Assembly: GCA_947561395.2 (NCBI GenBank)
Contig: OX387187.1
Location: 7,570,976-7,634,975 of the forward strand
Length of the DNA: 64,000 nt
Origin: Buxus sempervirens
Taxonomy: Eukaryota > Streptophyta > Magnoliopsida > Buxales > Buxaceae
Direction of reading: 5' to 3'
Shown here: positions 9,852 to 36,196 of the stretch, piece by piece
Layout: each line of letters starts with the position of its first letter
How positions within the stretch are numbered: the stretch's first letter is position 1
The notes under the pieces: model-generated
Database searches by the model: none
Told to the model about the DNA's origin: nothing
What the model saw: the letters and a program-made list of their open reading frames with translations, nothing else
Translations under genes and position numbers: made by a program

Positions 9852-11509
9852 CTAATCTCTATCCCCTAGTCTCTCCTCGAGCTCTCTAATCCGAGCCACC
9901 TGAGCCGCGACAAGCCTCTGAGCCCCTTCTGCATCTGGGTCGCTGAGGAAGGAAATGACATCATCTGAGAGGGTCTATTTGGTCCTCATCTCTCTGAGCC
10001 TGGCCATGGTCTCATCATGCCTACGCCATACAGCTCTAACCTCAAAGCAACGGGCTTGTATCTGCTCTGCAAGCCGTCTCTCCAAGTCTTCCTTCTCCAG
10101 TCTCATCGCTCGGGCCTCCTCCACCCAGATATGCTGGAGCCGCCTATGAGAAGCCCTCTCAGTCTCCAGAAGGTCCTCATAGGTAGGACACGGGACAGCA
10201 GGGGGATCCGCTGGTACAGAAGCACAACTCTCGCTTGCTCCCTAATCCAGAAGAGGTAGTCCTTCTCATGCAGTTTGGAGAAGACAGGACCACTCAAAAA
10301 GCAGGCATGGGACCACTCCTTCATCAAACGAAAGCACAGCCCCATGGTGGCTAGTTTGAGTGGTCCAATGAACTCGTCATATCCCTGAGGTACTAGGATC
10401 CCCTATGTCTCCTCTCTGAACTGCCGGATGACCCTCAAAGGCAAATAAAGCAAAGCAGACCTCAAGCCCATGAGCACGGCAAAATTTCGATCCGGGAAGC
10501 TAATCGCCGTCTCGGTAGAAGGCTGATAAGTACTAGGACATCTCACCTGGTTATCCTGGAGCATCCCTAAGAAGACAAACCACCCCCTCTTGCCTCCTGG
10601 GATAGAAGGACATCCCCGATTGTTCATCAAAGTGAGAACATCCATGTTTCGGGCGAAGTGTCGATCTATCTCCTCGATCTGAGTCAGATGATCTAGAAGC
10701 CAGAGCTGCAAAGAGAAGGGAAGCATTTCAATATATTTGCAAAGAAAATTTCAATTTCACAAGAAAATTGTAATTCAAGAAAGTGATTCAGATTTTACCT
10801 AAAGGATAGGGGCGCAGGCGAGAAAACTCTTCTTCTTTCGATGATAGCAGTCAGTCAGGGCCTGGTATATTTCAGCCAGGATCATAGGGGCAAGCCTTTC
10901 GCACTCCCTAACCTAGCAAATGACTGAAATGAGGGATAAATCAACCTCACTATCATCTCAGGGGAATAAGAGTTGATTGACCACTATCAAAGTTAAAGCA
11001 TTAAATCGGGCTGGCTGGTTCGAGCTATTCAATAGCTTTTCAGTCAAAAATGACTTGGATAGGGTCAATAGGGCGTCAGCATCCCCTAACTCTTTCTTGC
11101 CAATAACTAAAAAAGTGGAGGCCTCCTTTTTAAAGCTTGGTTTGAGAGGTGGGTTGACTACCTTTTTGGAGAACCTAGTGTTGAGGATGGTTTCAACCTC
11201 CTCAACTGTAGGGGTCATCTCCTTATCCCCGAACCTGAAAAGGTTTAATTGGGGTTCCCAGTGCCCAATCAATGCCTCTATAATTTCACTTTTTAGGGAA
11301 ACCTTTGGGAGTGAGAGGTTGTGGCCTAGATTGGTGAAATCCTAATCTATCTTGTCTTGATGGGTCATTGAGTCAACCCATCTCTCATAACAAGCATCCA
11401 CTACGGCATATCTTGTTAAATTTTGGGGTTTTGATCTAATGGTTGGTCTGGAAGCTGATGTTTCAGGTACAGAGGACGAAGAAGGTGCGGAGGCTGAATC
11501 AGAGGCCAT
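9852..11509 (-). pseudogene. Antisense gene 1 of element A: PMD/DUF7745-like protein, two exons, degenerate
   Basis: The gene runs opposite to gag-pol. Exon 1 is 11509-10799 (ATG 11509), ending at a GTAAAA donor; exon 2 is 10705-9852 after a TTTGCAG acceptor. The N-terminal part carries the PMD-type signature (IGHWEPQLNLFRFG, EMTPTVEEVETIL); exon 2 has WLLDHLTQIEE, a conserved C-terminal region and a heptad-like tail ending GDRD. Several in-frame TAG/TGA codons occur, including one at the last codon of exon 1. Same structure and splice positions as 46944-48663. Similar proteins in plants are of unknown function; a catalytic role is not evident. Confidence 0.75.
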
Positions 11510-11618: not shown

Positions 11619-11759
11619 TTTAAAATAGCAAAAGGGCAAAAACCACATACTCAAAGCGGTTGTGCTTGAACCGCTCCCAATGTGCGGTTACATTTCTGCG
11701 AAGTTTAAAAACCGCGGAACAAGTGCGGTTCCAGCACAATCGCCCTATATGCGCAGTTT
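11619..11759 (-). promoter_or_regulatory. Antisense gene 1 promoter of A: palindrome array plus TATA-like box
   Basis: Four palindromes have half-sites at 11643, 11671, 11712 and 11740, all with an 11-nt spacer and AACCG/CGGTT-type arms; two are exact. On the minus strand the array is followed 12 bp later by TATTTTAAA (11627-11619) and then by the ATG at 11509. The same arrangement with different half-sites precedes the gene in element C. A transcription start is inferred, not shown. Confidence 0.65.
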
Positions 11760-12031: not shown

Positions 12032-15000
12032 TCATGTAAAAACATGATCCAAGATACGTGGAGCGGCGTAGCGAGTTAGGCGACCCAAAATAGATTGAAG
12101 TGAGTAGATGGGATTCATCGAGGGATCATACTCAGGAAAAGTCAGCTCAGCCGAAGAGGATGTACTGGCAGGAGAAGATGGCCCAGCAAGAGAAGATGGA
12201 CCAATAGGAGGAAGAGGATTAACTGGAGGCGCTGGCTCAACTGAAGGGATATGATCTGGATCGTCCGAGCCATCACGGGTAAGATCCATGAAGCGGGAAA
12301 CTAAGATATCTGTCGCCAAGGGGACCAAGTCCAGAACCCGAGAATCCTCGGCAACAGGAGACGAATCAACGTCTATGGGCTCAGCTGTCTCACGGACCTC
12401 TGCCACCTCAGGCTCGGGTACATCATGCACGTCTGCCTCTATCGCGGGCTCGGCTGCCTCAGGAACCTCAGAAACCTCAAGACCACCCTCCTCTGGCTCA
12501 GTGGCAACCACAGGATCCTCCTCTGGCTCAGCAGATACGGGGGCAGGCACAGTCTCTGGCACAGGAGCACTCTCAGGCATAGAGGCAACCTCTGACAAGT
12601 CAGCTGGCTCAGGAACAGCAGCAGAAGTAGCCTCAGCCACTATCTCCGGATCTCTCTCCGGGATCTCTGTAGCCTCTACAGAAAGAGATAGGGTACGGGA
12701 GCTGGATGGCAAGGCTGCCACGTCCTCCTGAAAACAGAAAAATCCTGATCAGAAGCAAAAAACGTAAAAGATAAACAGAAACTGAAAGGAATAGAGGGAC
12801 AACCTGAACCCATGAAGGCCCTGCCTGGCCCTGAGCGCTAGCTAGTTGAGCCCGCAAATCAGCAATAAGAGCGGCCTGCCCAGTGATGATGACATCACTC
12901 TCAGCTATGGCAACATCTCTCTCCGCTAGCTAGCACTCTAGATCCGCATATCGAGCTTGGATCTCCCCTAACTGTGCCTCTTGAAATGAGAAGAAAAGGA
13001 CATGAGCAATTTCAAAACAAAGGAGAAGTTAAAAAGAATAGAGTAGGACGAGATTCATACCGTGGTATCATATAAGCGGATCACCACCCCTCCAATCTCG
13101 GTAACTCCACCTCGAACGAGCATGGGCTGCAGAAGACAACCCACTAAGACCTGCCCAAACCAGGCATCGTAGTCACCCTTGGCTAAAAGTGTCTCTCCAG
13201 CCACCCAATAGCTAAAATGGGTGGGATCGAAGGGACCAAGAGGGGTGACAGGTGTCGTGTCTGGGGGAGCCACAAGTATCCGGAGTTCGCTGGTGTGCTG
13301 GAAGTAGAAGCGCTCGCCGAGGTACCAAATGCTACCTAGCTGCCCAATGAAGAAGGGATACCTCTGACGCCGTTATTCTAGAGCAAATGCCTCATCCACA
13401 AATGGCTGAAAAGCCAAATCATCATGAAGGCCATCTAGACGGGGGAAAGACAGTTGAAAATAAACAAAGATACATATCAGATTCTTGAAAAAGAAAAAGA
13501 GAAAATAAGAATTGATATAAGAGGAATCCGTGAAAGCATTTACCTCTCTCCTCAAGGTCCTATCCAAGTGAGCCCTGGCCGACCTAGGCCGACTCTTCTC
13601 AGAGTCGCGCCGAATCTTACTCCATCTACGTGCCACAGGGAATGTCCCCTTAGGCAGTGTGGAGGTCGGCAAAAGTGGGCCACATAGACCCGAGCGAAGA
13701 ACTGAAAGAGAAAGAAAAAAAAAAAGAGAAGATGAGAAAAAAGAAGAAAAAAAAAAGAGAAAGAGAAGAAAAAAAATGAATTCATACCTGCAAAAAAGGC
13801 CAAAAGAACCTGCAGCCAACTCCAGCACCTCTGGGAGAGGACAGACCAGAGACCACTCGTCGCAGACCCGCTAATAGGGTGCCGTAGACAAGCTGGCCCC
13901 AAGCATAGTCCCTTGCTCGAGGTAAATCCCTAAGAAGACTCAGGAAATGAGGACTGACTGAGGTGGTATCCTCCAAGCAGAAGCACAACCCCATCATCAG
14001 TAGAAAAAGGAAGCAAAAGGCCACCAGGAAGCTGAGATGCTCCATTGCCACGGTAACGTATCCCCTCGCAAGGAAGGTATCCCTCAACCAAGTACGAGAA
14101 AGGCGGGTGATCCTACTCCTGTCCCATGCCTCCACTGGCATCTCATCATATCCCAAAAGCTCGGCAATCTCCAAATCAGCCGGCCTATCCAACTCAGTGA
14201 TGACATCTCCGGTCATCCAGATCCCAGTAATGAGAGCAAAGTCAGAGGGACAAATCCCAATCTCTACATCAGGCAAATGGAAGCTCAGGGTCTCTGGGAA
14301 GAACCGCTCCATCATAGCCGCTATCAGAGGACGATCCTGACAAACGCCGATGATGATGATGAAGGGGCCGAACCCAAAACGGCCCATCTCTCTGCGCAAA
14401 GGAGTTGAGCATCCGGCCACTGTCTCAGAAAAAAGAGCCCAACTCCCGCGATAATGAGAACACGGATAGACAAGGGGAATATCAGCTCTAACGCCCGCCG
14501 AAGGGTGCGTCCGCAGATCATGGAGAAGAGGAGTATCTCGGATCTGATCTGCTATCCCAGCAGGAATAGCAACTCGAGTCGCCCGGGGATCTGCCCTACC
14601 TCTACGACGAGCTCCGCCGCGACCTCGAACCTCGAACCTCGGTAACAGGCTAGAAATGCAAACAGGATGGAGTCAGGTCGAAGGTTGTAAGGGAAAGGCC
14701 TGATCTTTAAAAAGAAAAGAGAATACCTCAAGGGTCGGCTCTCGCGAACCCCCAAATGCTCCTGAATCTGAATCTGAGACCTCCAGACTGCTGGAAGAAG
14801 AAAGATCAGGGTCCTACTCGGCCCTAGAAGAAGATGTCACATCGGCCGGGTCCCTCCAAACCCTCGAAGATGAAGGCTCTCTGCGGGACCCCGAGAAGCG
14901 CGATGGGTGCGGGCCATCTACAAGATCAAATTGCAGGGAGAAATTCATTACGTTTCTACTTTTAAAGTCATAAATTTCTTTCATGTTTTTCTTCAAAATT

Positions 15001-16352
15001 TTTTTGTTTGCAGAAATATGGAGATCGGAAGAAGCACTTCAAAAAGTGCCCCACCAAACCAGGATTTGATTTCTTTTAGTCTTTACTAATTTTTTTATTA
15101 TTCAGGATATACATATAAGAATTATATATAGGAAATGAAATTCCTATATATCCTTCTTATATGATCAAAAAAAAAAAAAAAAAAAAAGAAAGAAGAAAAG
15201 GGAGAAAATATACTGAGACGAATTTTCTGGAATCTTTGGTTCATGGCTAAAATTTTAGAATTCTAAATTTGTTTAACAAGTTATCTAAGTTCCCTAACTT
15301 TCAAAATTGATCTTATTTCAGGTTTACAGGGGAAGGGCAATAATGGAATTTGGGCTTATTTGGTTCCTACCAAGAATTCGAATACTCAACTCCAGCTGTG
15401 GGGGAAGTTATCCAAAGTTCGAGCTTAGTTCACATTCAAAAAGTCGAAAAGGATAGTTCGATATCTATTGGGTCTTGAGACATTCCAGTTAAAGCCATAC
15501 AGGTCACCAAAAGTCACTCTAAGCAGACTAAGCAAATCAGTGCACCAAAGAGAATCCGTAAAGGCATAATAACCATGAATCAGAGCATGATCAGAAAAAT
15601 AACCAGTGTCGAAGCATGTTGTGAGTGAACATACCAAATGCTCAAGTGATCAGAATTAAGAGGTCACATTGCCATTGAAGCAAAAGCTTAAAGCAAGAGT
15701 AAAGGCATTCAGACCCAAGCATGGTCCCAACATGATCAAGTGAACATTGTCATCGAAATCAATATGGCAAATCAAGATACAACACTCAAAGAGATCAAGT
15801 GTTCATCAAAACATTAGTTCAAGATCTGTGTTCTCAGATAAAGTGCCGCAGAGAAGCAATCAGAATATGAACAATTCTAAAATCAGGAGATCAGTTCAAC
15901 CAAAAACAGGGATCAAATACATGCATGAACAAGGATCATTCAATGAGGGAATCGAGAGATTAGCTCTCGGATTAAGTGTTCAAAAAGGAAAAAAATGTTT
16001 GGCCACTTACCTGTTCCTGTTGAAAGGGGGATTTTTGGCAAAGAAAGGTTGAAGCTTTGTCTCACTAGAAATTAAAGCAATCACTGCCACCAAGGAGGGG
16101 AAGTAATCTGATGTTGGCTGGCGTTTACGAGTACGAAGTCCCAAATGGCTACAGAGAGGTCACGATTACAGCAACGAGGGGAGGTTGGCCGAACCAATCG
16201 AAAACTGATCAATGCGACAGCTCACATGAAAACAGGGGTCACCGAAAATCAGAAGTCGGCGGAGGGGGTGATGTCGTCGGAAAAGAAGGATGAAAAACCG
16301 GAGGAAAGACACGGTCGCGAGAGAAGGTAAAGTGAGAAGTCGCAGTCTCAAT
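12032..16352 (-). pseudogene. Antisense gene 2 of element A: plant mobile domain protein, multi-exon
   Basis: Predicted exons on the minus strand are: untranslated exon 1 (about 16340-16011, donor GTAAGT), 14917-14727, 14649-13788, 13701-13544, 13434-13061, about 12979-12804 and 12727-12032. The acceptor of exon 2 (TTGTAG) abuts the ATG at 14917. Exon 3 is one long open frame. It starts with an RGRGGARRRGR basic stretch and contains the PMD signature (ERFFPETLSFHLPDVEIG, PSDFALITGI). Exon 6 is coiled-coil-like; exon 7 is an acidic, Pro/Glu/Ala-rich tail ending GRLTRYAAPRIL. Exon 2 is frameshifted and single stops occur in exons 5 and 6. PMD proteins of plants are linked to silencing and genome stability; the role here is unknown. 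Confidence 0.75.
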
Positions 16353-16429
16353 TTTATGCAACCTAGAAAACCACACAAACAGAGCGGTTGATATTGAAAT
16401 GGCCAAAAACCGCATGCTCAGTACGGTTA
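16352..16429 (-). promoter_or_regulatory. Antisense gene 2 promoter of A: two palindromes plus TATA-like box
   Basis: Two CCR-N11-CGG sites begin at 16371 and 16410, exactly 39 bp apart. On the minus strand they are followed after about 10 bp by CATAAAAT (16359-16352). The predicted untranslated first exon of gene 2 starts just beyond. The layout repeats that at 53227-53304 in element C. Confidence 0.6.
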
Positions 16430-16772: not shown

Positions 16773-19198
16773 TGTAGACACCCCAAATTGCACTTCAATG
16801 TGAGAGAACATTCAAAATGAGTTTTAAATGTTTTATTTGAGCTTTGACATGTGTCAAAAACTCAAAAAATACTCAAAAAGGGTGCTAACCGTACTGTATA
16901 TGCAGTTTTTGTGAATTTGGTCTCAACCGCCCTATGTATGCGGTTGCGACCGCGCACACAGCACGGTTGAGGTTCATGCTTCTTGCGTGAGCTGCCACGT
17001 GGCTTCTAGAAGCTTAGGCCATTAGGCCACGTCGACAGCAATCATGAGGAGCATAACTGAATTTGAGCCGGCCTGTGTATGCGGTTGAGGTGAATTTGCA
17101 TAGAAAACGCACATAGAGTGGAGGTTTTGTTGAAAACGCACTGTGTATGCGGTTTTGCTTGTTTCGTGCATTTGCGAAAAGGCTCGATCTCTGAGCCTTA
17201 TTTACGCATATTACCTCTCTCTTAAGGACTTGAACTCCCTGTTTTACCCTCCGAAACTTGCGAAATTACTCCAATTCAAGCCTTTAATGGGAATTGGAAT
17301 AATCTAGAAGTGTTTTTAGGCATACCCTTGGGACTTTTATGCCCTTGGTTGTGCCTATAAATAGAGGGGTCCTCCTCTTGCAAATGGCTGGTATTTTAAA
17401 GCTTGGAAGCTCTGCAAGAAGAGAGAAAACTCTGCTGGATTGCTGCCTTAAGTGTTCAAGCTACCAAAGGTAAAGCTCCATTTGATTTTCTTGTTTCCTC
17501 TTTACATTCAACTCTCCACTTCTATCTTTCTGTAGTGTAAAGCCAGTATGTGGTTGTTTGCAAGCCCCAAACCTCTTCCAAAGTACCTGGGAATCCACTC
17601 TAGCCATAAAACGTGAAGAGAGAGCCTTGAGAAAAGAAGTTGGAATGGATCCTCTAGGCTTAGAACCTACATATGATGAAGAGCATGCTGGTTATTTTTG
17701 TACCTATAGTTGCTTCTCTGATCTGTTTTGTATTTGTCTTTGGAGAAAATACATGAATCCATGCTCTCAATAGCAATGGATTCCAACCTTCTCCTAGAAA
17801 TATGATTTCCATCACCATCAAACACACTTTTCACTGTTTTTGCAAGGATAGGCTAGATCTTGGATTTTCCATGTTTAATATGAGAAATCTGAGATCATTG
17901 GCCTTAGAATGAATTTTTAGAACTTCATGAGGCTGTTTTTCATGGTTTCCAGTTGCTTTGGTCGAATCCACTTGCGCACATGCACTGATTTTGGCCTTTT
18001 ATTAAAAAATCTTCAAAACAGGGCAGCATCTATGGCCTGTCTTAGAATGCTTATAACTTCATCCTCCGGATGAATTTTTGAGTGATTTTAAAGACATGTG
18101 ATAGATGGGAAAGTCTACTTTGTATCTGGAAATTTTCATTCATTTTTATGAACCCAATTTTTGACACCATCTGTTCAAAGTCGGCAGGTCAGCTCAGTCC
18201 AGATTGCTGAACTTGCCACTTTGATTGAGCACCGCTTGCTCATTTTTAATCCGTTTTGAGTGATTTCAATCTCTGTGTTTTCCTTGAAGAGTCTATTTTC
18301 TATTCCAGTAGGTTTCACAAGATTTTGTTTGGATTTGTGGCTTGTGTGCTTGATTGACTCTGAGTGGCTCTGTAACAGAGTTCTGGGTTAATTTGTGATT
18401 CTCTAGGCATGTTCAAGAAGACACACAAATCACAAATGGATGGAGTTTGGTGTAAGACCTATTTCGTTTGAAAGATGGCACCATATACTTCATCCGTGCA
18501 AGTTTTTACGGATTTATATGGAACCAAGTTCCACGAATAGGATTTCAAAAATGCTTACTCACTGCTTTTTCTGAGTTTCAACAGCAGATTTTCACATAGT
18601 ATTTCTCCCTTTGTTTTAAATCAGAATGGGATGATTTTCTTACTGAATATTCTACTTCATACCAGCTTTCAAATGGCCTTAGTTTCATTTGATTTGGATC
18701 TAAATTGAGTGATTTGTGGCTAATCGAAGCTTTCAAGCTATTGCAATCTGATTTTTCCATATTTTACCTTAGCTTGGTTTCTCTTCATTTTTATTTTGAT
18801 TTTCATTCACTCATGAAGTTCTAGAGGTGATGTATCCACGAAGAGAGTCCATATCTATTGGACTATTCATATGGAATAATCACACTCATTTTTGCTTACT
18901 TTCAAGTACTCTTTGTTTATTTTGATTAGCAAACAATCCTTGAGCATGAGCAAGCATTCGGCAACCATCTTGTACGGATGAGTGGGGGTGCCTAACACCT
19001 TTCCCTGCTCATAACTAATTCCCCTTACCTGATCTCTGGATTTTTCCTTGAATTAAAGCTACTCTGGCTCTATTTGGCATTTTTATGATCCTTTTGGTGT
19101 CCATTCACACCTTAACTTGAATGGTGGCGACTCCTTATTTTTGTCAAACCCCGTGTGAGAATGAGGAAGTCATCTAGGTGACACTTCCTTGTTTCACA
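16773..19198 (+). repeat. 3' LTR of element A (2426 bp)
   Basis: It starts TGTAGACACCCCAAATTGCAC, as do the LTRs of B and C, and ends ...TTTCACA. A TATA box (TATAAATA) lies at 17356-17363 with U3 palindromes upstream (16885-17156). The U5 end has the conserved GGGGTGCCTAACACC hairpin (near 18986) and a TGGCGACTC copy at 19125-19133. The middle (about 17400-18950) is weakly similar to the LTR of C in short blocks (donor-like GTAAAGC, 'cttcatc.tccgg' motif). Transcription start and poly(A) sites were not identified. Confidence 0.93.
16885..17363 (+). promoter_or_regulatory. U3 promoter of element A LTR: six palindromes and TATA box
   Basis: Half-sites begin at 16889, 16927, 16950, 17068, 17107 and 17136; every pair is 11 nt apart. 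Three are exact CCG-N11-CGG and the others differ at one or two positions. Spacings are irregular (38, 23, 118, 39, 29), unlike in B and C. The TATA box TATAAATA follows at 17356. This would drive genomic RNA synthesis. Confidence 0.65.
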
Positions 19199-21080: not shown

Positions 21081-23583
21081 TGTAGACAACCCAAATTGCA
21101 CAGTAAAAATGATCAATAATCAGCAAAAATCATTGCTTCCTTTGAAACCAGCACAAAAATGTGAAAAAAGCAAGTTTTCCTTGTATCCGACAACTCAGGT
21201 CGGATACAAGTGCATTTGTTCGTATCCGATGGAACATGCCAGATACAAGTAGCCCTTAATGTATCTGGCAACATATGCCGGATACACATAGGCGCTAGTG
21301 TATCCGACCTGACATGCCGGATACACTAGTTTTGCTCAAAATTAGGGTTTTCCGAGAGCTTTCACCTTTTACCATCATATCCCTCATTAAATGAGTGGAA
21401 ATCTTAGAAATAACCTTAGGGTTAAGGTTGGTGGGCTATAGACCTTATGTTGTGTCTACCACCTCACCAACCCTAACCCTAGCATTTGCCTATAAATAGG
21501 AGGCTCCTCCTTAAGCAAATGGCCATTAACTCTTTTACCAACAATTCTTGCCAAGAACTTTTGCCAAGAAGAGCTTCGAGAGAAGAGGGAAACCGCTGCG
21601 GAAGTGCTTCCAGAACCCAAGTAAGCCTCAAACCTCTTTTTAATTTCTGTTTTTACATTCTAGATCTAGATCTCTTCTTCTACCTTTCTGTAGAATAAGG
21701 CCTTGATGTGTGTATGAAAACCCTTCCCCAGCTCAAAGTATCTCAAGACTCCCCCTAGCCGTAAAACGTGAAAGCGAGATCTAGGAGAAACGAGACTGGG
21801 GATTGATCCTAGTACTAGAACCTCTTTTGCTATAAGCCTTTTGAATCTTTGAAGACCGTTCCATATTCAAAGTACCCCAAGATTATCTTGAAGAACCGTG
21901 TTTAACGGGGAGAGAGAACTAAAGGAAAAGATAATGGAACGGAACCCTAGGTTGTTTTAGAACCCTCTTTTTTATTGATCTAAATGCATGCTATAAGCCT
22001 TGTAATTCTATGGAAACCCTTTCATATTCAAAGTACCCCAAGATTATCTTGAAGAACCGTGTTTAATGGGGAGAGAGAACTAAGGGAAACGATAATGGCA
22101 TGGAACCCTAGGTGGTTGTAGAACCCTATTTTGATTGATATGAATGCATACTATCTTTGCTATGTCATTGGAATGATTTTACACTTACACATACATAGCA
22201 CGTGATTTCGGTAGGATGGGCTCATATTTCGAATTTATTGCGTTTATTGTGATAAATTTGAAATAAATAGCCCCAAGCAATTTTGGAATGTTTTCAAATG
22301 ATTTTCAAAGGATTTTGATTAATCTTGCACGGATCACACACACTTTATCACTATTTGGAGTTGGTTTTCATCAAAAATGGCTTAACTTAACAGCAACTGT
22401 ACTCCAACTTCGGACACTCATAACTTCATCGTCCGGATGAATTTTGGAGTGATTCTAGAACCATGGGAAAGGCGAGGCTGTCTAGTTTATGTCTGTAAAA
22501 TTTAATAGATTTCTATCAGGCAGATTTTTGATACCTCTCTGTCGAAGTTGATAGGTCATTTCAGATCTGAATACGGAACCTGTCATTTCGACTGAGCGCC
22601 ATGTGTTTGTTTTATTTCTGATTCGAGTGATTTTTGTTTCCGAGCACCCCTTTATGAGTCTATTTTCAAATCCAATTGGTTTCATAATTTTTTGACTCCA
22701 TTTGTGCTGTTGGTAACAGATTTACTCAGAACTGTTCATCAGCATTTTTCTGGGTAAATCTGTGATCTTCGGGGCCTGTTCGGGAGACCACCCAAGGCAC
22801 ATCTGAATGAATTTTTGTATGAGGCTAGTTTCAGTTGAAAGATGGTCATACAAACTTCAATCACACCAAATTTCATGAATTTATATGGAGCCAATTTTTC
22901 TAGATGGTTTTCCAAACTTGCCCACTTGTCACTATTAATCATCTCCAGCAGCAACTTCAAAGGAGGCATAACTCCTAGGATTTTAACCGGAATGGATTGA
23001 AATTTTGCATGAGTCTCTTATTTATCATAATCTTTCAAATGGATTTGGTTTGAGTCAATTTAAAATTGGATTTGAATGATTTCAAGACAAATGGTTCTTG
23101 CTTTTACCAAATTTCCTAGATTTAACTCAACTTGGTTTTGTGCAATCTTTGCTTTGATTTCCATTTATTGTTGATATTCCAGAAATGATATTGAAATAAA
23201 AGAGGATCCGGAATCCATTTGGATCTTCATGTAAAGATATCATACATTTGTCCTTTTTCAAGGTTTTTAATGATTTTTAGCAAGCTTTCTTATCTTTTTT
23301 GCATAAACAAACACTTGGCAACCACCTTGTGTGGGTGAATGGGGGTGCCTAACACCTTCCCCCGTTCATAATCTAATCCCCTTACCCATCTCTGGATATG
23401 ATTTTCAAGTAGAGTTATTTTTACTCTAGTATTTGCCTTTTAGCTATTTTTGCTTATTTTGAATCTTTTTGGTGTCCATTCACACCCCAAAATCTGAATG
23501 GCGGCGACTCTCCCACTTTTTACGTTGAGCCCGTGTGTTAACGGAGGGGAAATCATCTCCGGTGATTTTTCCCATGTCTCACA
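21081..23583 (+). repeat. 5' LTR of element C (2503 bp)
   Basis: TGTAGACA...CTCACA. U3 carries four palindromes (21183-21324) and a TATA box TATAAATA at 21491-21498. Past the TATA box a GTAAGC donor-like site lies at about 21620. The U5 end has GGGGTGCCTAACACC near 23343 and GGCGACTC at 23503-23510. The body is nearly identical to 53783-56286, and recognisably the same as the B LTR at 36197-38502. Confidence 0.96.
21183..21498 (+). promoter_or_regulatory. U3 promoter of element C: four phased palindromes and TATA box
   Basis: Palindromes GTATCCG-N11-CGGATAC start at 21183, 21222, 21261 and 21300, each exactly 39 bp after the last. The first and fourth have perfect CCG/CGG half-sites; the second and third have one changed base. 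Spacers and the 14-bp fillers differ between sites. The TATA box lies about 166 bp downstream. It would direct the sense genomic RNA. Confidence 0.75.
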
Positions 23584-24923: not shown

Positions 24924-25192
24924 TGTGAGACATGGGAAAAAATCACCCGGAGATGATCATCCCTCCGTCAACACGCGGGGCTCGACATAAAGAGTGGGAG
25001 TCGCCACCATCCATTTGTTTAGGGTGTGAATGGACACCAAAAGAATTAAAAACAAGCAAAAAGAGATAAAAAGTGCTAAAAGGCAAATTCTAGAGTAAAA
25101 ATAACCCTACTTGAAAATCAAATCCAGAGATGGGTAAGGGGATTAGATTATGAACGGGGGAAGATGTTAGGCACCCCCATTCACCCACACAA
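24924..25192 (-). repeat. Remnant of the 3' LTR of element B (U5 end only)
   Basis: About 269 bp match the terminal part of B's own 5' LTR (36197-36465) with few differences, and end at GCCAA. At about 25190-25195 the match stops at 'cacacaa' and continues as post-pol spacer (homologous to C near 46650). Only one or two bases of overlap are seen at the joint. Confidence 0.92.
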
Positions 25193-25852
25193 AATAATGA
25201 AAAGCGTAGTCCACAAAATAATGAGGGATCAGAACCGTCCATCTTAGGTCCTTTAGAGTCATCCCCAAATGCCTTTTCTTCCAAAACTGACCCCCTTCTG
25301 CTCATGCCAGCTTTGTTTCAGGCTCAGATCTCCATGATCAACTCAACCTCTGATTTTTTTTCTTTTTTCTTTTTGCCAATATTGCCCCTAGCGCCAGTTA
25401 CGGTTTTCACTAGGGCCGGCTTCTACATTCCGTCATCACCCATCTTACTCTGACATTTGAATGGACAAACTAAGATCACCGAGGGCTTAACAATGGGACG
25501 AAATAAAGGCTAGGCTCAGTTTATGAAAGAAAGGGTATTAAAGGCCCAAAAATTTTCAAGTGTGGAAATAGGTCAATCGGACTCACAGTCATGATGAATT
25601 TACCCATTTTTCCCCAAATTGCATTTTTTTTGCATCTCTTTTCACACTTGGCTTTTATTTGCCATTTTTCATTGCTTTTCCTCTCTCTCTTTTTTTTCAA
25701 CTTTGCCCCAATTGATTTTGCCCCAATTTGACTGTAAATCCGGTTTAGGTTTATCAAAGAAACGAACCGGCTCAACTTGGCTAGACTAGGGATTAAAATT
25801 TTTGAAGGAAATAAAGAAAAATGGCCTCGGATCATTTCCTAGAAATATTCAT
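25193..25852 (-). other. Post-pol spacer of element B
   Basis: Non-coding. On the minus strand it follows the pol stop codon and is collinear with 45951-46650 in C, including the CTAGGGGCAATATTGGC phrase. It ends abruptly at the LTR remnant. Confidence 0.8.
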
Positions 25853-26968
25853 TCAAGGAAAATACCTTTTTACTGCATCAGAGTTAATTGGCTTAGGAAA
25901 ATCTGACCCATCCATTTCTGCTAATATGAGTGCACTCCCTGATAGGACTTTCTTGACGACATATGGCCCTTCAGAATTTTGCTTGAACTTACCACGAGGA
26001 TCTTCCAAAAATGGTAAGATTTTCTTTAGCACCAAGTTTCCTTCTTGGAAAGTTCTGGGCCTCTCTTTCTTATTGTAGGCCCGGGCCATTCTTTTCTGGT
26101 ACAACTGTCCATGGCAAAGCGCTTTCAACCGCTTTTCTTCTATCTGGTTAAGTTGATCATGTCTTGACTGTACCCATTCGGCTTCCATGAGCACTCTGAG
26201 TGATGGGATCTCCACTTCCACGGGCAAGACTGCTTCCATCCCATAGACCAGGGAGTACGGGGTTGCCCCAGTTGAAGTCCGGATTGAGGTTCTATAAGCA
26301 TATAGAGCAAGTGGTAGCATTTCATGCCAATCCTTGTAACTCACTACCATCTTCTGAATGATTTTCTTTATATTTTTATTTGCTGCTTCTACTGCCCCAT
26401 TCATCTTTGGCCTGTATGGAGTTGACTTGTGGTGGGTGATCTGAAACTGCTCACGCATCTTCTTCATGTCCTTGTTCTTAATATTTGAAGCGTTGTCTGA
26501 TACTATGGCACTTGGCAGTCCATAGCGACAAATAATATTGTGCTTCAAAAATTTAATAACATGGTTGCTTATGATATTCGCATATGAGGCTGCTTCCACC
26601 CATTTAGTGAAATAATCAATCGCCACCAGGATAAATCTGTGCCCGTTTGATGCCTTAGGGGAGATCATGCCAATAACATCTATGCCCCACATAGAGAAGG
26701 GCCACGGTGATGTCATGTTGTGCAACTCACCTGGGGGTGCATGCTTGTTATCTGCATATATCTGACATTGGTGGCACCTCCTGACATGGATACAGCAATC
26801 ATGTTCCATGGTCGTCCAGTAATAGCCAAGCCTCAGGATCTTCTTTGCCAGCATGTGCCCGCTCATATGGGGCCCACAAACTCCTCCATGTACAGTCTCA
26901 ATCAGCCTTTCCGATTCAACCTTGGCAACACATCTAAGCAGAATGTCATTATGTGACCTCTTGTACAT
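25853..26968 (-). CDS. Element B integrase (open, 371 codons as read)
   Basis: This is the C-terminal part of the polyprotein, which would join element cDNA to host DNA. It has an intact HHCC finger (HGGVCGPH ... CCIHVRRCHQC), a full D,D35E triad (second Asp codon at 26497-26495) and a conserved C-terminal end DAVKRYFP. It stays open from 26968 to the stop at 25853, the longest intact pol block in the window. In an element it would be part of one polyprotein, so the ATG is not a true start. A frameshift near 26960 separates it from the second RNase H. Confidence 0.9.
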   Translation of the reverse strand: MYKRSHNDILLRCVAKVESERLIETVHGGVCGPHMSGHMLAKKILRLGYYWTTMEHDCCIHVRRCHQCQIYADNKHAPPGELHNMTSPWPFSMWGIDVIGMISPKASNGHRFILVAIDYFTKWVEAASYANIISNHVIKFLKHNIICRYGLPSAIVSDNASNIKNKDMKKMREQFQITHHKSTPYRPKMNGAVEAANKNIKKIIQKMVVSYKDWHEMLPLALYAYRTSIRTSTGATPYSLVYGMEAVLPVEVEIPSLRVLMEAEWVQSRHDQLNQIEEKRLKALCHGQLYQKRMARAYNKKERPRTFQEGNLVLKKILPFLEDPRGKFKQNSEGPYVVKKVLSGSALILAEMDGSDFPKPINSDAVKRYFP

Positions 26969-28095
26969 ATGCCACCACTTAGCAGAAATTGACCAGCCAA
27001 TCTCTGTATTGTCCTCTTCTCAGTAGCAGTGGCATTTTCTGGCAGACTCCGATTGTTCAAGAAATTTTTAATATCTTGAAACCACGGTGCTTCTTCTTCT
27101 GGTGCTCCCTCTAGAACGAGACAGCAAGCCGGTTCATCTCGGACCTCAATTTCCAGTGGTCTGATGTCTACTCCTTCTGGTATGCTGACCATTGAAGCCA
27201 ATGTTGCTAGAGCATCCGCAAACTGATTTTTGACCCTTGGCATATAGTTGAAGGAAATTCGAGTGAAATTTGTGCTTATTTCTTCCAAATACTAGTGATA
27301 GGGGATCAATTTGCGATCCTTGGTTTTCCATTCACCAGTTGTTTGGAAGATGATAAGACTTGAATCCCCGTATACGTCAAGTTCCTCTACTCCATGATCC
27401 ATGGCTGCTTGCAATCCAATTATGCATGCTTCATATTCTGCTATGTTATTGGTGCACTGGAATCTCAGCTTTACTGCAATCGAGATGTGTGAACCATTTG
27501 GTTTAACCAAGACTGCCCCTATTCCGTTCCCATTCATATTGGCAGCCCCATCAAAGAACATCTGCCAAGAACTCTCACTTTCCTCCTCTTCAGTGTATAG
27601 AATCGCCTCATCGGGAAAGTTGGTCTTCAAGGGTTGATATTCTGGCAGAGGATGTGCAGCCAGGTGATCAACTATGGCTTGACCCTTGATCACCTTCTGA
27701 GTGATGTACGTGAGGTCAAACTCGGACAGTAGTAGCTGCCACTTTGCCGTCCTGCCAGTCAGTGCCAGTTTCTCAAATAAATACTTTAGCAGGTCCATCC
27801 GGGATATCAATAGTGTGGAGTGACTAAGGAAATAATGCCTTAGTCTCTGAGTTGCCCACACTAGAGCACAGCAAGTCTTCTCCAATGGTGAGTACTTGGC
27901 TTCATATTCTGTGAATTTTTTACTCAGATAGTAAATTGCCCTTTTTTTTCTACCAGTCTCATCATGCTACCCCAAGACACATCCCATCGACGTTTCCAAC
28001 ACTGACAAGTACAGGATCAGTGGTCTTCCTAGAGTTGGTGGCACTAGCACAGGCGGGTTCAGTAGATATTCCTTGATCGTATCGAAGGCTTGCTC
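26969..28095 (-). pseudogene. Element B first and second RNase H domains, broken
   Basis: The first RNase H (about 28090-27650) shows EKTCCALVWATQRLRHYF and DHLAAHPLP. The archaeal-type RNase H (about 27570-27170) shows MFFDGAANMN, NNIAEYEACI, VYGDSSLI and NQFADALATLAS, so its acidic residues appear present. A TAG at about 27293 (in 'PYH.YLEE') and stops near 27968 and 28095 interrupt the frame. The joint domain order matches element A. Confidence 0.88.
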
Positions 28096-28905
28096 TCAAT
28101 CCTCATTCCAGACCGTCGGGTTATCTTTCCTCAGAAGCTTAAAAATTGGTTCACAGATAGCAGTGAGCTGTGCTATGAACCGGCTTATGTACTGAATTCT
28201 TCCGAGAAAACCACGAACCTCCTTCTCGGTTCTGGGTGCTGGCATTTCAATTATGGCCTTGGCTTTAGCCGGGTCAATTTCAATTCCTCTTCGGCTCACT
28301 ATAAACCCCAGAAACTTCCCTGATATAGCCCCAAAGACGCACTTAGCCGGGTTAAGCCGTAGACTGTACTTCCTGAGCCGATCAAACACTTTCTTCAGAT
28401 TGATCAAGTGGTCCTCCTCCTTGCATGATTTGGCAATCATATCGTCCACGTAGACCTCCATCTCCTTGTGGATCATGTCATGGAATAGTGCTGTCATGGC
28501 CCGCTGATATGTTGCCCCGGAATTCTTGAGTCCGAATGGCATGACCGTGTAGTGGAATGTGCCCCAAGGTGTGATAAATGTTGTTTTCTCTTGATCTTCC
28601 TTAGCCATTTTGATCTGATTATATCCAGAGAACCCATCCATGAAGGAGAACAGGCTATGTACCGCAGTATTATCGATCAGAATGTCGATGTGTGGAAGCG
28701 GAAAGTCGTCCTTTGGGCTTGCCTTGTTCAAGTCTCTATAGTCCACGCACATTCGGACTTTTCCGTCCTTCTTGGGTATCGGTACTATGTTTGCGAGCCA
28801 TTCAGGATACGTAGAGACTGCCAGAAATCCGGCTTGGAACTGTTTGACCACTTCGTCCTTGACCTTCAGAGTCCACTCAGGCTTCAATCTTCTTAGCTTC
28901 TACTT
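28096..28905 (-). pseudogene. Element B reverse transcriptase
   Basis: A long open block encodes RT with CVDYRDLNKASPKDDFPLPH, SGYNQIKMA, FGLKNSGATYQRAM and YVDD (28452-28441). A TAG at about 28899 precedes it and a TGA-class stop near 28095 follows. All visible catalytic motifs are intact. It is the only complete RT in the inner nest, because C has lost its own. Confidence 0.9.
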
Positions 28906-30950
28906 AATTGGCTTAACCCCTGGCAAAATCGGCAACTTATGCACCACCATGTCCGTGTCCAACCCCGGCATGTCCCGATACGACCAAGCAAACACATCCT
29001 TGTAATCTACCAAAAACCGTGACATTTCATTTTGCTGCACATTAGACAAGCATGACCCGATTTTCACAATTTTTGGGTCATCTTCGGTCCCAAGATTTAT
29101 GGATATGGTCTCCTCAATATTAGGTTGGACCCCCTTTTCATGACGTTCCAATTGGTATTCAATTTCTTTTGGAAGGTCTCCTTCTTCGACCTCGGTCTCT
29201 TCTTCGACCCCCATGAGATCAAAGTCGAGCTCAAGGTCGAAGTCATATTCAACCTGGTCCAATTCGGTTTGATTATACGGTTCATAAGTGGTTTGGACCC
29301 TTTTGAAAAAATTAAATTTCCTAGAAAAAATAGAAAAATCTTTTTGGGTTTTTTGTGGGCCCTCTAAACATAATCCCCCTGAAGACGAAGGCCCATTAGA
29401 ACCTTCAGGGGAATGGCAATCCACTATTGGAGTTTTTTTTTGGAAGCCGCGTCAGTTTGCCGAACAAACGCTGCTTCAAAAGTAAGGGGAGTTTCCTCCC
29501 AATTATTTAAAAAATGTTTTTCGGGAGCTGGGGAAATTGTGCAAGCCCACTCCTCAAACCCAGAATCCGATGCCATCATCACCGGGTGGGTACTGCCCTT
29601 TTCTGCTACGGGGCTCAGTCTAGAAATGACCTTCTCTGGAATCTTTACTGCAGTCCAGTCGATGAAAGGCAGGTCCATGTCACCACCAGTCTTTTCGCCT
29701 TCTGTCATGGTGAAGAAGGCCCCAACATCCTCAGAAAAGTCCACTTGCTGCTCGGGCTGTGGCCCAAGCCCATCTGCTGCTTCCATTATTGGATACGGGT
29801 TATAGGGTTGCAGGATCGGAACATATGGTTTCTGGAATGGGTTGATGTTGTGGTATGGAGGCTTGGACTGGTCCATAGGATGAGACAATTGGATTATGCA
29901 GGAGGGTTTAGGAAAACTTTCCCTTAAATGAGCGAAATTTCTTCTGCTTCTTCTCTCTCCTTCCTCATACTTCTGTCTTCTCCAGCTTCTGGGCTTAAAG
30001 CCCAACCCTGCTTTAGGAACCAGCTTGTTTGCTTTGACCGGCTCCACCCTTCCTTGTAAGTTTATTCCCAGGCCTTTTCCTGGGTGAAAGTGGTATTTTT
30101 CCATCACTTTCTTCACCATTCTCTTTGCAGTAGTACCATTTTCTTTCTTTTTCTCACACCCCCCAGGTATGAAATTTACCGCCTCAAATTGAAATGAGTG
30201 GAATGCAATCTTGTCAACAGTCAAGTCTACATTGATCAAGGGTACATCAGGTGACACGATAGGCGGCACCAAGTTTTCGGCTAGGACTGTTATCACCCTT
30301 TGTCCTTTTACATATTTCACCATTTGGTGAAGCGTGGATGGTATCGCCCTAGCCGAATGTATCCACGGCCTTCCTAGGAGCAGATTGAAGGCTGCGGGTA
30401 TATCCATCACTTCAAATGTGATGTTGAAGATATTCGGCCCAATTGTGACCGGCAATTCGATCTCCCCTAGGGAGTGGGTCTTGGAGCTATCAAAAGCCCT
30501 CACTATCCGCCCATTTTGTTTGATCCTTGACTGGTCCAGACCCAGCTTGGCAAAAGTGATTAACGGGCAGACATTTAACGCCGACCCATTGTCAATCAGG
30601 ACCCGTGCCACCATGCTGCCCTTACAAAGCACAGTGATGTGCAAAGGGTCAACGTGATAGCAACCACTTGGGCTGATCTCACCCTCAAAGAAACTTATCA
30701 CATTATGTGACAAGATTTGACCAACCATTTTGCCAAGTTGGTCTGGATCAATAGTCTGGGATACATGTGCACTCTGTAGCACCCTTAGTAATGCATTCCT
30801 GTGCTTTTCCGAATTCAGCAAAAGGCCCAGTATTGAAATCTGGACCGGAACCTTGTTTAGCTGATCCACAAGATTAAATTCACTTTTTTTTATGATTTTT
30901 ATGAGGTCTGCTGCCTCATTTTCTACACCCTGGGAGGTCTCTTCTCCCAC
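28906..30950 (-). pseudogene. Element B protease, G-patch-like segment and linker
   Basis: The protease active-site motif D-N-G-S-A is intact (Asp codon 30593-30591). The flanking blocks KSEFNLVDQLNKVP, DPDQLGKMVGQILSHNV and GRPWIHSARAIPSTLH are conserved in A and C. The G-patch-like segment lies at 30119-29985 (GKGLGINLQGR ... AGLG). A stop near 29424 splits the linker that leads to RT. The function would be polyprotein cleavage. Confidence 0.88.
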
Positions 30951-33150
30951 TTTGTTTTTTCCTTTTTGTTTTCTTTTTTCTTCATTTTATTTTTTTTCTT
31001 TTTCTGCTTCTGTCTCCTTCTCTCTCTCTTCACCCCTGCACATCTCCCCGACCTCGTCATGAGGTTCACCTCCTTCTGGTTCTGGTTCCTAACCTTTGGA
31101 ACCGTAGCCGTGGTTCCCTCGCTGTAGTTCCATGGTACAATGGCCTCAGAATATGCTAGTTTAGGGATGTTAACCACTAGTGGCTGGAGTTTGGACCGGG
31201 ATGTATGGGCCGGTTTAGGGATAGTCTGGGCTGGCTGAACATTTACAACCAAGGGTTGAAGTTTGGATTTTGTGGGGACAGAAGAAGTGATGGAAGCAGT
31301 GGTGGGGTCAAGGTTGATGACCAATGGAGCCTTGGACGGCTTGGATGGTGAATAAATGGGTGGACTGCAATTGACGACCAATGGGGGCCTTGCAGTATTC
31401 ATCTGGGCCATAAGAGATGAAACCCGGTTTAAAGAGGAACTTATGTCCTTAGCAGCTGGATTATTTTTCTGGGAGACCATGTTGATCTCCTCTTCTTCCT
31501 CCTCTGGGAAAAATCGGACCTGGACCGTGGTCCCTATGGGAGCTATGAGCTGTGATGGGTCAAAGGCCCTTCTGGTGGTGGATATGGCAGTGATAGAGTT
31601 GGATGGGCCTGCCCCATTGTGGTACGGTAGAGGGTTCTGCCCAATATCATTTCCAGACGGGGCTGGTGCAGCAGTGTTAAACACTAAGGCCTTCTAGTCC
31701 AACAAGTCCTGGACCGCGTGTTTCAACACCCAGCAGGCATCTGTAGAATGCCCCGGTGCACCCATGTGGAAGTCACAGGTGACCACTGTGTCAAAATTCC
31801 TCCCCCTTGTGGCATTCGGGTTGGGCTCTTTCAGAGTCAAATATTCACCCTTCAGCAGGGTTGGCAGCAGTTGGGAAAGAGATATTGGGAGAGGAGTGAA
31901 AACCCGGTTCTTTCTATTTGCTAACCAGGCCTCCCTTTCCTCCCTGGTAAAAGCCCTCCTTGGGTTTGCTGGTACAAAGGGGGAGAAATTGACATTCAGT
32001 GGGGTCTGATAAGACTGCTAGGCCTGCTGGGCTGGTTGGGGTGCAGAGATATTCACATGAAGCGGCTTCTTGGCTAGAGGAGCCTGGACCAGGTTTATGT
32101 CTCCTTCTTTTCGGGCCCCGTTCTTCTTGAACCCAGCCCCTTTCTTCTGGGCCATGGATGCAGAGGAATCAGACTGCCCAGTCAGAGTAGAATAGTCAAT
32201 AAGCCTTACTGACCTGACCCCTTCCTCGATCCGGTCCGCCACCTGCACCAGGGCTGCAAAGTTGGTGGTGATCTGACCCACTAGATGGTTGTAAAAGGGC
32301 TGCCCCAGTGTGCCCATGAATGTTGAGATCATCTCCGGTTCTTGCATAGGTGGCATGACTTGGGAGGCGGCCTCTCTCCACCTCTTGGCGTACTGCCATA
32401 CTGGCTTATCTTTCCCTTTGCTCATCCTCATCATGTCGTACCGGTCTGGCATGATCTCAGAGTTAAACTTGTACTGATCCAGGAACGCGTCAGCCAAGTC
32501 CTTCCAACTCCTGATCCTTCCATGGTCCACTGTAGCGAACCACCTAAGAGCTGACTCGGTCAAACTCCTCTGGAAGAGTTGGATTAATATGCCGTCATCC
32601 CGGCCAAACTGGCATAGGGCCCGCAGTATAATTTTAAGTGGCTCATGGGGCAGCCTGTGCCGTCGAATTTGTCAAAGTCCGGGCACTTGAATTTGGCCGG
32701 TAGCCATACGTCTGGATACATGCACAGATCTTTGAAAGTGGTGCCTCCATAGCTATTTCCCCCCTTCACTTCCTTCAGCTCTTCCTGGATCCTTTCTATC
32801 CTAAGCAGCATTTTCTTTTCCATCTCTTCTCTGGCATTTTCCTTCTCCAGTTCTTTCTCAGATTTTGCTGTATTTTCCCTGATCAGAATGGGTTCAGGGA
32901 CTGGTTCAGAAATGGGCTCAGGCATGGGTTGAGCCGGAGGCGGCATGTAGGCCTGAGGTGGTGGTGCCTGATGGGAGGTTGACGCTTGATTTTGGGCTTG
33001 AGCCTGTTGGGCCTGAGCCGCCAGTAGCTCTCCCAGCATCTTGGCCAGACCGGCCACCTGCTCTTGCAGCTGAGCAAAGTCCTGAGCAGGGACGGTGGCT
33101 TGGGCTTGGTTCTCTTCAATGTTCATGGCTCTGGCTTTGGATCTGGTCAC
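30951..33150 (-). pseudogene. gag: Element B gag, broken
   Basis: ATG 33150 starts MTRSKARAMN, with a Gln/Ala-rich N-terminus. The gag core (about 32760-32250) is followed by the knuckle CDFHMGAPGHSTDAC (31777-31733). A 1-nt loss in a G run near 32617 shifts the frame in the core. TAG codons occur near 32017 and 31695, and another frameshift near 30950 precedes the protease. A Lys/Glu-rich low-complexity stretch lies at about 31020-30960. Confidence 0.88.
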
Positions 33151-33309
33151 GGGAGCAATGGTTACAAATAATTGTACCTGGGTTGCAAGTAAATGTACCT
33201 TGGGAAAAAATTAATAGAACATGAGCCACACCCCTATACATGTAAACAACTAGGTTAGGTGAACACCAATCCAGATTTGTTTTTGTTTTTTTTTTTTTTT
33301 TTTTTTTGT

Positions 33310-34240
33310 GTTAGAATATTTTAGGGCTTCCAAGGGTCCCAAAAATTTTTTTGATTTGATTGGTAAAAAGAAGACCAACCAAGAGTTCATGCAATATTTT
33401 AGGGCTTCCAGAGGTCCCACTTTTTTTGACTTGATTGGTAAAAAGAAGACCAACCAAGGGTTTTTTATGGAATATTTTAGGGCTTCCAAAGGTCCTACAA
33501 TTTTTTGATTTGATTGGTAAAAAGAAGACCAACCAAGGGTTCATGGGATATTTTAGGGCTTCCAGAGGTCCCACTTTTTTTTTTGACTTGATTGATAAAA
33601 AGAAGACCAACCAAGGGTTTTTTTTTAATGGAATATTTTAGGGCTTCCAAAGGTCCCACAATTTTTTATTTGATTGGTAAAAAGAAGACCAACCAAGGGT
33701 TCATGGAATATTTTAGGGCTTCCAGAGGTCCCATTTTTTTTGACTTGATTGGTAAAAAGAAGACCAACTAAGGGTTCATGGAATATTTTAGGGCTTCCAG
33801 AGGTCCCACTTTTTTTTACTTGATTGGTAAAAAGAAGACCAACCAAGGGTTTTTTATGGAATATTTTAGGGCTTCCAAAGGTCCCACAATTTTTTGATTT
33901 GATTGGTAAAAAGAAGACCAACCAAGGGTTCATGGAATATTTTAGGGCTTCCAGAGGTCCCACTTTTTTTGACTTGATTGGTAAAAAGAAGACCAACCAA
34001 GGGTTCATGGAATATTTTAGGGCTTCCAGAGGTCCCACTTTTTTTGATTTGATTGGTAAAAAGAAGACCAACCAAGGGTTCATGGAATATTTTAGGGCTT
34101 CCAGAGGTCCCACTTTTTTTGATTTGATTGGTAAAAAGAAGACCAACCAAGGGTTTTTTTTGGAATACTTTAGGGCTTCCAAAGGTCCCACAATTTTTGA
34201 CTTTGATTGGTAAAAAGAAGACCAACCAAGGGCTTCATTT
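33310..34240 (-). repeat. Leader tandem repeats of element B (about 12 units of ~76 bp)
   Basis: The phrase AGAAGACCAACC recurs about every 76 bp (33371, 33447, 33523 ... 34216), with T-run length differences giving 70-86 bp periods. Each unit holds TGGAATATTTTAGGGCTTCCA, an inverted repeat with an 11-nt loop. The units are homologous to the six units of C at 39497-39915, so copy number differs two-fold. The unit length is close to a multiple of three, so long artefactual frames appear on both strands. Confidence 0.93.
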
Positions 34241-34510
34241 TTTAAATTTGCTGAATTTTCTCAATTTTCAAGTTCTAAAGCTTGATTGACACATGTTTGA
34301 ATTGAATTGATATCAAAAAATATCACACCTTAGCTTGTTCTTTGAGCTTCCACATTATGTTTAATCTCTTAAGGGAATATACATTTTTTTTTATATTTTT
34401 TTTTTGGACATTTTTATATTTTCTTTGGGGTGCCTAAGGATTATCCACAGTGTTTAGGCATTTTATTCTGAAAATTCGGGCTGAAAAAGCAATTTATTCA
34501 TTTTCTGCAT

Positions 34511-36194: not shown

Positions 36195-36196
36195 AT

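Follow-up and report, generated by a model that had tools for sequence, protein, structure and literature searches.

A spaced palindrome shared by the long terminal repeats, leaders and antisense promoters of Ogre-like retrotransposons in Buxus sempervirens

We describe arrays of a palindrome of fixed geometry in three related Ty3/gypsy elements (A, B and C) that lie at a single locus in the genome of Buxus sempervirens, within a stretch of 64,000 nucleotides (contig OX387187.1 of assembly GCA_947561395.2, positions 7,570,976 to 7,634,975 of the forward strand). This whole 64-kb stretch is hereafter termed the window, and all coordinates refer to it. The elements look like Ogre-type Ty3/gypsy retrotransposons, and A and C carry two antisense genes situated between pol and the 3' long terminal repeat (LTR). 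What is added here is one spaced-palindrome code, CCG-N11-CGG, that is common to the LTR, the leader and the two antisense promoters, and that differs as a set between families. Judged from its geometry and placement, the clusters very probably represent operator-like arrays for a dimeric, sequence-specific DNA-binding protein. For the full chain, in which dimer operators, a binder encoded by the element, and control of the LTR and antisense promoters would be joined, we give about equal credence to its holding and to its failing.

Clustering of the gap-11 palindrome

Strict matches to CCG-N11-CGG number 26 in the window, as against 1 to 9 for other gaps between 3 and 24, and 200 dinucleotide shuffles of the sequence give a mean of 1.85 and a maximum of 7. 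All but one of these matches (25/26) fall in eleven clusters, which cover 1,784 bp as bounded here, and inside the clusters every inverted CCG/CGG pair with a gap of 5-19 stands at gap 11 (25/25), with zero elsewhere. The first-pass annotation of this DNA, made from the letters alone, had claimed an exact gap of 11 nt between half-sites, and had named an equal frequency of other spacings in the same regions as evidence to the contrary; the gap is borne out, being exclusive within the clusters and far in excess of the alternatives across the window. When all gaps from 0 to 39 are considered, the next peak for CCG...CGG is 17, at gap 37, which we attribute to adjacent sites within a 39-bp grid. 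The same gap emerges with longer arms: TATCCG...CGGATA occurs 14 times at gap 11 and at none of the other gaps from 0 to 39, and AACCG...CGGTT occurs seven times at gap 11 (five in A, two in the leaders of B and C), with otherwise one instance at gap 34 and one at gap 39. Moreover, a motif-free scan of all 6-mer inverted repeats ranks this palindrome and its shifted forms top. The clustering of the gap-11 palindrome is real.

A Gal4-like reading of the sites as CGG-N11-CCG was tried and rejected, as its orientation is reversed: CGG...CCG is found six times with a gap of 11, and its peaks, with 19 instances each at gap 22 and gap 35, agree with the 39-bp grid. A single strict CCG-N11-CGG falls elsewhere than in the clusters (16296-16316, AACCGGAGGAAAGACACGGTC); it is situated in what is presumably the 5' untranslated exon of gene 1 in A and is probably due to chance, and three stretches with the palindrome pattern in viral contigs are likewise taken for chance on a rough estimate.

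Two forms of the repeated unit

A list of sites drawn up by eye, decayed copies included, holds 26 sites in B and C and 14 in A. The "about 42 sites" of the first-pass annotation thus come to 40, in 25 of which both cores are exact (17 in B and C, eight in A). The full palindrome of B and C reads TGTATCCGRC-N7-GYCGGATACA, its symmetry reaching both inside and outside the CCG and CGG triplets, and GTATCCGRC-N7-GYCGGATAC with up to three mismatches is matched 23 times, in comparison to a mean of 0.01 in 100 shuffles. The earlier description of an N11 unit therefore holds as regards the gap, but N11 reflects the choice of the CCG triplet, and the inner symmetry leaves a spacer of N7. The common form in A is AACCGC-N9-GCGGTT (that is, AACCG-N11-CGGTT), represented by 14 sites in four clusters. 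Elements A and B/C consequently have the core and the gap of 11 in common and differ in their outer arms: outside the core, the half-sites of B and C bear TAT in 47/52 cases and TAA in 5/52 (tallies recounted by hand), whereas in A an AA adjoins the core in 24 of the 28 half-sites and TAT in none. Since the arms are near-uniform inside an element but differ from one element to another in a single host, the binder would seem to travel with the element, and to be encoded by it.

In B and C the sites keep to a grid of exactly 39 bp, the LTR, leader and gene 2 arrays holding four each and the gene 1 array (53241) two, from which it follows that the sites within an array are tandem-repeat units and not independent inventions. 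Site spacing in A is looser (39 bp twice, otherwise 23, 28, 38, 41, 68 and 118 bp). The order of the units, a to d, is kept among the LTR, leader and gene 2 arrays of B and C, and the spacer of site a is CAACTCAG in 5/5 four-site arrays (counting the C LTR pair once), so that these arrays appear to descend from one array copied within the element. Although the eleven clusters of the first-pass annotation contain nearly all strict sites, their use as independent evidence was rejected, because those at 21183 and 53885 are LTR copies of one array and the B/C arrays share their unit order. At the first leader sites of B (34628-34652, TTAACCG/CGGTTAA) and C (39038-39062, ATAACCG/CGGTTAA) both arms have switched symmetrically to the A-like type; such sites within TATCCG-type arrays are perhaps a second specificity.

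Placement of the arrays at promoters

Arrays are found in the LTR U3, in the leader (B and C) and at both antisense promoters (A and C), which upholds the earlier claim of a palindrome shared by these regions. Absence of the clusters from elements that retain the antisense genes had been put forward as contrary evidence; within the window, A and C alike keep arrays at the LTR and at the promoters of genes 1 and 2, the gene 1 arrays having two sites and the gene 2 arrays four. The arrays of A and C do not align in self-BLAST, yet have an equal gap at the same three promoters. No counterpart of the A array at 9317-9404 was seen in C.

At the four antisense promoters the order on the minus strand is array, TATA-like box, then gene, with the box lying 13 (C gene 2), 8 (C gene 1), 11 (A gene 1) and 14 bp (A gene 2) past the edge of the array. 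On a simple seven-base score these boxes reach 7, 6, 6 and 5 (of 7), respectively. Two sets of controls were used, namely 20,000 positions drawn at random from the same regions, of which 1.4% score 7, 10.6% score at least 6 and 48% score at least 5, and 12 other array sides. Among the leader arrays, a TATA word scoring 6 is present only at that of B. Just beyond the TATA-like boxes, a GTCGCG or GCGACTT word (minus strand) is found at C gene 1 (53207-53226), A gene 2 (11613-11618) and A gene 1 (16337-16343), and is a possible shared start-site element at three of the four antisense promoters.

Conservation of arms, spacers and linkers

We compared arm and linker identity for 15 array pairs, with Fisher tests on 5/15; the pairs overlap and their p values are non-independent. 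Arms exceed linkers in 13 of the 15 pairs, for example between the C and B LTRs (arms 64/72, linkers 27/42, p 0.003), between the C LTR and the C gene 2 array (61/72 and 23/42, p 0.0008), and between the C LTR and the C leader (54/72 and 19/42, p 0.002). The LTR pair of the single C copy, whose divergence dates only from after insertion, exhibits no arm excess (67/72 and 40/42, p 1.0), which suggests that arms are protected in replicating lineages and not in dead copies. Spacer identity between LTR arrays and leader or gene 2 arrays ranges from 13/28 to 20/28. Of the 18 substitutions in the CCG and CGG cores of the listed sites, 17 are C>T or G>A, and weak sites consequently look like the products of methylation (deamination) decay rather than of design.

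The antisense genes

Gene 1 encodes a protein with a plant mobile domain (PMD), an extra open reading frame (ORF) of this type being a frequent though non-universal trait of Ogre elements. In A, the ORF at 13782-14672 matches PF10536 with an E value of 4.2e-15 (56.2 bits, curated cut-off 34.9). The C counterpart is 50% identical to it over 291 columns (tblastn), and its open piece at 51252-51659 gives a weak PF10536 match that falls below the cut-off (E 0.012, 15.2 bits). Gene 1 of both elements has an apparent noncoding first exon and an intron that ends just before the ATG (GT/AG by eye, common to both). Gene 2 is best described by PF24924 (DUF7745), with E values of 2.1e-9 in C (47816-48196) and 7.5e-9 in A (10961-11341, matched to C gene 2 by tblastn), or 37.4 and 35.5 bits against a cut-off of 26. 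Its resemblance to PF10536 lies under the cut-off (23.0 and 16.5 bits; in C, E 5.3e-5 on 48148-48663).

Comparison of A and C gives a nonsynonymous divergence (dN) of 0.48, a synonymous divergence (dS) of 2.6 and a ratio of 0.18 for gene 1 (3 pieces totalling 479 codons, 4 C stop codons excluded), and a dN of 0.22, a dS of 2.1 and a ratio of 0.11 for gene 2 (5 pieces totalling 342 codons, 2 C stop codons excluded), these ratios being rough given that dS is saturated and infinite in 3/8 pieces. The values point to protein-level selection on the antisense genes in the long-separated lineages of A and C. Synonymous sites have reached saturation between A and C (dS >2), yet the position and geometry of the arrays are kept while the outer arms differ as a set, and this combination favours a dimeric DNA-binding protein encoded by the element. 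A search of a protein collection with A gene 1 scored 7,993 candidates, none of which reached E 0.001. Searches of viral contigs with integrase, gene 2 and gene 1 pieces, and of bacterial and archaeal contigs with integrase, in which only close matches are detectable, returned no relative.

Evidence against and alternative explanations

Several observations weigh against reading the arrays as operators for a protein of the element itself. Five B/C half-sites, all of them in leaders, bear A-like AACCG arms, and arm types are thus not fully element-exclusive, while an A-type site was sought in the 1,560 bp of the A leader inside the window and none was found. Comparison of the C and B leaders reveals no arm excess (58/72 v 34/42, p 1.0). 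The first-pass annotation had argued from a fixed geometry with a variable 11-nt spacer; the fixed gap stands, and spacer and linker have diverged in most comparisons, but the spacer of site a is constant, and the spacers of the C and B LTRs (24/28) are as conserved as the arms. Support from TATA boxes is modest, given that the score of 5 at A gene 2 is met at 48% of random positions and that two of the 12 control array sides reach 6, although none reaches 7 (the minus side of the B leader array, AATAAAT, and the far side of the C gene 1 array); furthermore, the A array at 9317-9404 has no convincing TATA box on either side. Finally, PDB sequence searches gave only chance-level matches (best E 0.89 each), and an AlphaFold model of the A gene 1 exon with three other pieces from the window had a mean predicted local distance difference test score (pLDDT) of 37.7, so that DNA binding by the PMD is without structural support here.

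A different possibility is that a host transcription factor binds the arrays, such as a dimeric stress factor, or an AP2/ERF-DREB protein acting on CCGAC-type half-sites, and we consider this unlikely while recognising several points in its favour. CCGAC is the core of the dehydration-responsive element, and many of the B/C half-sites read CCGAC. However, AP2/ERF sites are monomeric, such that a fixed gap of 11 and symmetric arms extending beyond CCG are unexpected for them, and a host factor sits poorly with arms that differ between A and B/C inside one host genome but are largely uniform within an element. Two published cases also speak for a host factor: Sireviruses, which belong to an unrelated superfamily, carry CGG/CCG palindromes before the TATA box, and in the text covered a comparison with a database of plant sites gave mainly stress-related ones (PMC2829016), while the Arabidopsis genes that depend on MAIN/MAIL1 share a promoter motif which, in the view of the authors, may be read either by an unidentified factor or by the MAIN/MAIL1/PP7L complex itself (PMC7156037).

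Two further alternatives dispense with a DNA-binding protein. The palindromes might be functionless minisatellites, in which a 39-bp unit was spread by slippage and template switching among the LTR, leader and antisense region. The exact grid in B and C agrees with this, as do the absence of an arm excess between leader arrays, and the unit order and first-site spacer common to the LTR, leader and gene 2 arrays, which imply that these were copied from each other. Yet arms outlast linkers in most array pairs (the two LTRs of one copy being an exception), and slippage alone would not preserve the gap of 11 that A and C have in common at three corresponding promoters; we therefore regard this explanation as improbable. 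Least probable of all is that the palindromes act as RNA hairpins in genomic RNA (in packaging, dimerisation or 3' processing). All of the arrays would fall within the genomic RNA, one array type is located in the leader, and a perfect unit, judging by its letters, would be able to fold into a stem of 9 bp closed by a loop of 7 nt. Nevertheless, the variable half-site positions 8 and 9 exhibit no covariation (shuffle p 0.22 and 1.0), and wobble-compatible pairs are evenly divided (antisense 11 v sense 11 cells, counted by hand from pair lists), favouring neither RNA strand. This fits a protein that reads each half-site and not an RNA stem. Position 4 does covary (p 0.013), solely through the two homologous first leader sites, and the arrays abut the TATA-like boxes of the antisense genes. 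An RNA hairpin was consequently rejected as the main function, on the even wobble pairs and the lack of covariation at positions 8 and 9.

A possible regulatory circuit

If the arrays are instead operators for a protein of the element, each site would consist of two inverted half-sites, with CCG and CGG cores 11 bp apart, read by a dimer, and one trans-acting factor would govern the LTR promoter and both antisense promoters. The factor may be one of the element's own antisense products, namely the PMD protein of gene 1 or the DUF7745/PMD-like protein of gene 2, or perhaps both together, as the presence of two antisense genes would allow a heterodimer. At the antisense promoters, the factor would sit beside the TATA-like box and could thereby exert feedback control over its own genes. 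Within the LTR, at 165-200 bp upstream, the same factor may activate the genomic promoter or keep it open against silencing, the latter being analogous to the role of VANC proteins on VANDAL transposons. The first-pass annotation had proposed operators that tie the sense genomic RNA to the antisense genes; the fixed geometry, the absence of covariation at positions 8 and 9, and the placement at LTR and antisense promoters fit this proposal, while the binder and the sign of its effect are inferred only. We tentatively suggest, as a serious possibility, that Ogre-type elements contain a self-coded circuit in which dimers of antisense PMD/DUF7745 proteins read a spaced palindrome in arrays at the LTR and leader as well as at their own TATA boxes, and in which protein and code drift together, with each family regulating mainly itself.

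Should this prove true, the PMD family of retrotransposons, from which the host genes MAIN and MAIL1 may derive, would gain an original function as a sequence-specific DNA-binding regulator, and LTR retrotransposons would have a counterpart to the VANC anti-silencing arms race. In the literature covered, the antisense genes of large plant retrotransposons have no proven role and PMD biochemistry is likewise absent, though host relatives act in silencing. A defined palindrome at the elements' own promoters, differing between two families in one genome, turns both questions into binding and reporter tests.

Comparison with known systems

The closest precedent for the arrays is the repeated motif of Sireviruses, and the closest mechanism is that of VANC, an anti-silencing protein that removes DNA methylation. 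VANDALs are DNA transposons, unlike the LTR retrotransposons that host the arrays described here, and DUF1985, the domain carried by VANC, had no match among the Pfam results for the antisense genes. In VANDAL21, according to the text covered, the fast-evolving VANC protein binds a short motif, YAGTATTAY, in non-coding tandem repeats, and the motifs evolve with VANC (PMC5735166). Our elements resemble this system in having motif arrays in non-coding regions that change together between related elements; on the other hand, YAGTATTAY is no spaced palindrome, and binding has been demonstrated for VANC whereas the present arrays are known from sequence.

Sireviruses (Ty1/copia) possess palindromic repeated motif boxes that are clustered in the LTR upstream of the TATA box, and again near env in env-bearing elements; a CGG-CCG core is present in all but one of the elements listed, the core persisting while the motif varies between elements, and the binder is not named in the text covered (PMC2829016). 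Palindromic repeats with a CGG/CCG core upstream of the LTR TATA box are equally present here. In contrast to what the covered text describes for Sireviruses, where the distance between core triplets differs from element to element, the gap is 11 in all three of our elements, and further sets of arrays occur at the antisense genes and the leader. The host elements also differ, ours being Ty3/gypsy by the order of RNase H and integrase, with a primer-binding-site-like sequence distinct from the Sirevirus TATCAGAGC.

With respect to Retand and Ogre elements, the extra ORFs, which in Retand are antisense and follow pol ahead of the 3' LTR, are suspected to encode DNA-binding regulators, and a PMD domain occurs in 57% of Ogre elements while Retand mostly has Transposase_28, as reported in the parts covered of two studies (PMC11963269, PMC6317226). 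The present elements are similar in their antisense extra ORFs and family-specific tandem repeats, and are unlike Retand, so far as the covered text describes it, in having PMD rather than Transposase_28; palindromic arrays at LTR and antisense promoters find no description in the text covered (PMC11963269, PMC6317226). Among host PMD proteins, MAIN and MAIL1 are needed for the expression of genes that share a promoter motif (DOWN) and for transposon silencing; in contrast to the proteins considered here they are encoded by host genes, and direct DNA binding is not demonstrated in the portions covered (PMC7156037, PMC5418596). Judged by title and opening of the abstract, none of the papers listed (10 of 20) in open-licence literature for Ogre together with palindromic seems to deal with such arrays, and a search for plant mobile domain with palindromes turned up only a cold-stress review, neither of which is proof of absence.

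The elements and their annotated features

Coordinates of the arrays, antisense genes and delimited elements are given in Table 1. Element A is on the plus strand and runs from inside its leader to its 3' LTR, which starts at 16773. In the ORF at 6991-7929, RVT_3 (2.3e-17) immediately precedes Integrase_H2C2, and RNase H is thus followed by integrase in a single frame, which we take to be the Ty3/gypsy order; in Ogre elements an archaeal-type RNase H is placed between RNase H and integrase, an arrangement for which the domain order read here is ambiguous. Element C is also on the plus strand, and its LTRs (21081-23583 and 53783-56286) are 96.5% alike by self-BLAST. A primer-binding-site-like TGGCGACTCTGCTGGGGACC at 23586, just after the C 5' LTR, is a candidate, by its position, for the primer site complementary to tRNA-Arg that is expected of Ogre elements. 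In element B the sequence past integrase is missing up to the final ~270 bp of the 3' LTR, and both antisense genes with it. The remnant of this LTR (24924-25192, the last ~270 bp) persists while the target duplication is intact, and a deletion from past integrase into the LTR therefore appears to have taken both antisense genes.

Table 1 Positions of palindrome arrays, antisense genes and element boundaries in the window
Feature	Position	Strand	Description
C 5' LTR U3 array	21183..21324		Four 25-bp palindromes on 39-bp grid; 165 bp before CTATAAATAG (21490)
C 3' LTR array	53885..54026		Copy of C 5' LTR array, not independent
B LTR U3 array	38272..38413		Four sites; B on minus strand
B leader array	34511..34652		Four sites; first with arms TTAACCG/CGGTTAA
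C leader array	39038..39179		Four sites; first ATAACCG/CGGTTAA, second with right arm CGGTTAC
C gene 2 antisense promoter array	48794..48935		Four sites, second decayed; TATAAAT starts 48781, minus strand
C gene 1 antisense promoter array	53241..53304		Two sites 39 bp apart; TATTTAA at 53233, minus strand
A-only array	9317..9404		Three AACCG-type sites, first decayed; between pol and gene 2 3' end
A gene 2 promoter array	11641..11758		Four AACCG-type sites, first and last decayed; TATTTTA at 11627, minus strand
A gene 1 promoter array	16369..16428		Two AACCG-type sites 39 bp apart, one decayed; CATAAAA at 16358, minus strand
A LTR U3 sites	16887..17154		Five AACCG-type sites, one exact; about 200 bp before CTATAAATAG (17355)
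A gene 1	13058..16350	-	Putative noncoding exon ending 16011, intron, ATG 14917, PMD exon 13782-14649; outer ends approximate
C gene 1	50063..53230	-	Putative noncoding exon ending 52853, intron, ATG 51886, PMD exon; in-frame stops; outer ends approximate
C gene 2	46930..48663	-	DUF7745/PMD-like; ATG 48663; lower end approximate; frame broken in copy
A gene 2	9850..11509	-	DUF7745/PMD-like; ATG 11509; lower end approximate; frame broken in copy
Element C 5' LTR	21081..23583	+	TGTAGACA...CTCACA; ends and 5-bp target duplication ACAAC read from sequence
Element B	24924..38502	-	Nested in C leader; target duplication GCCAA; from self-BLAST and read ends

Tandem repeats other than the palindrome arrays are also present in the elements. 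A 161-bp unit is duplicated in both C LTRs (21828-22154 and 54531-54857), the leaders of B (33314-34238) and C (39459-39912) have tandem repeats of 75-76 bp that separate the palindrome array from gag, and element A has a 78-bp repeat at 442-773.

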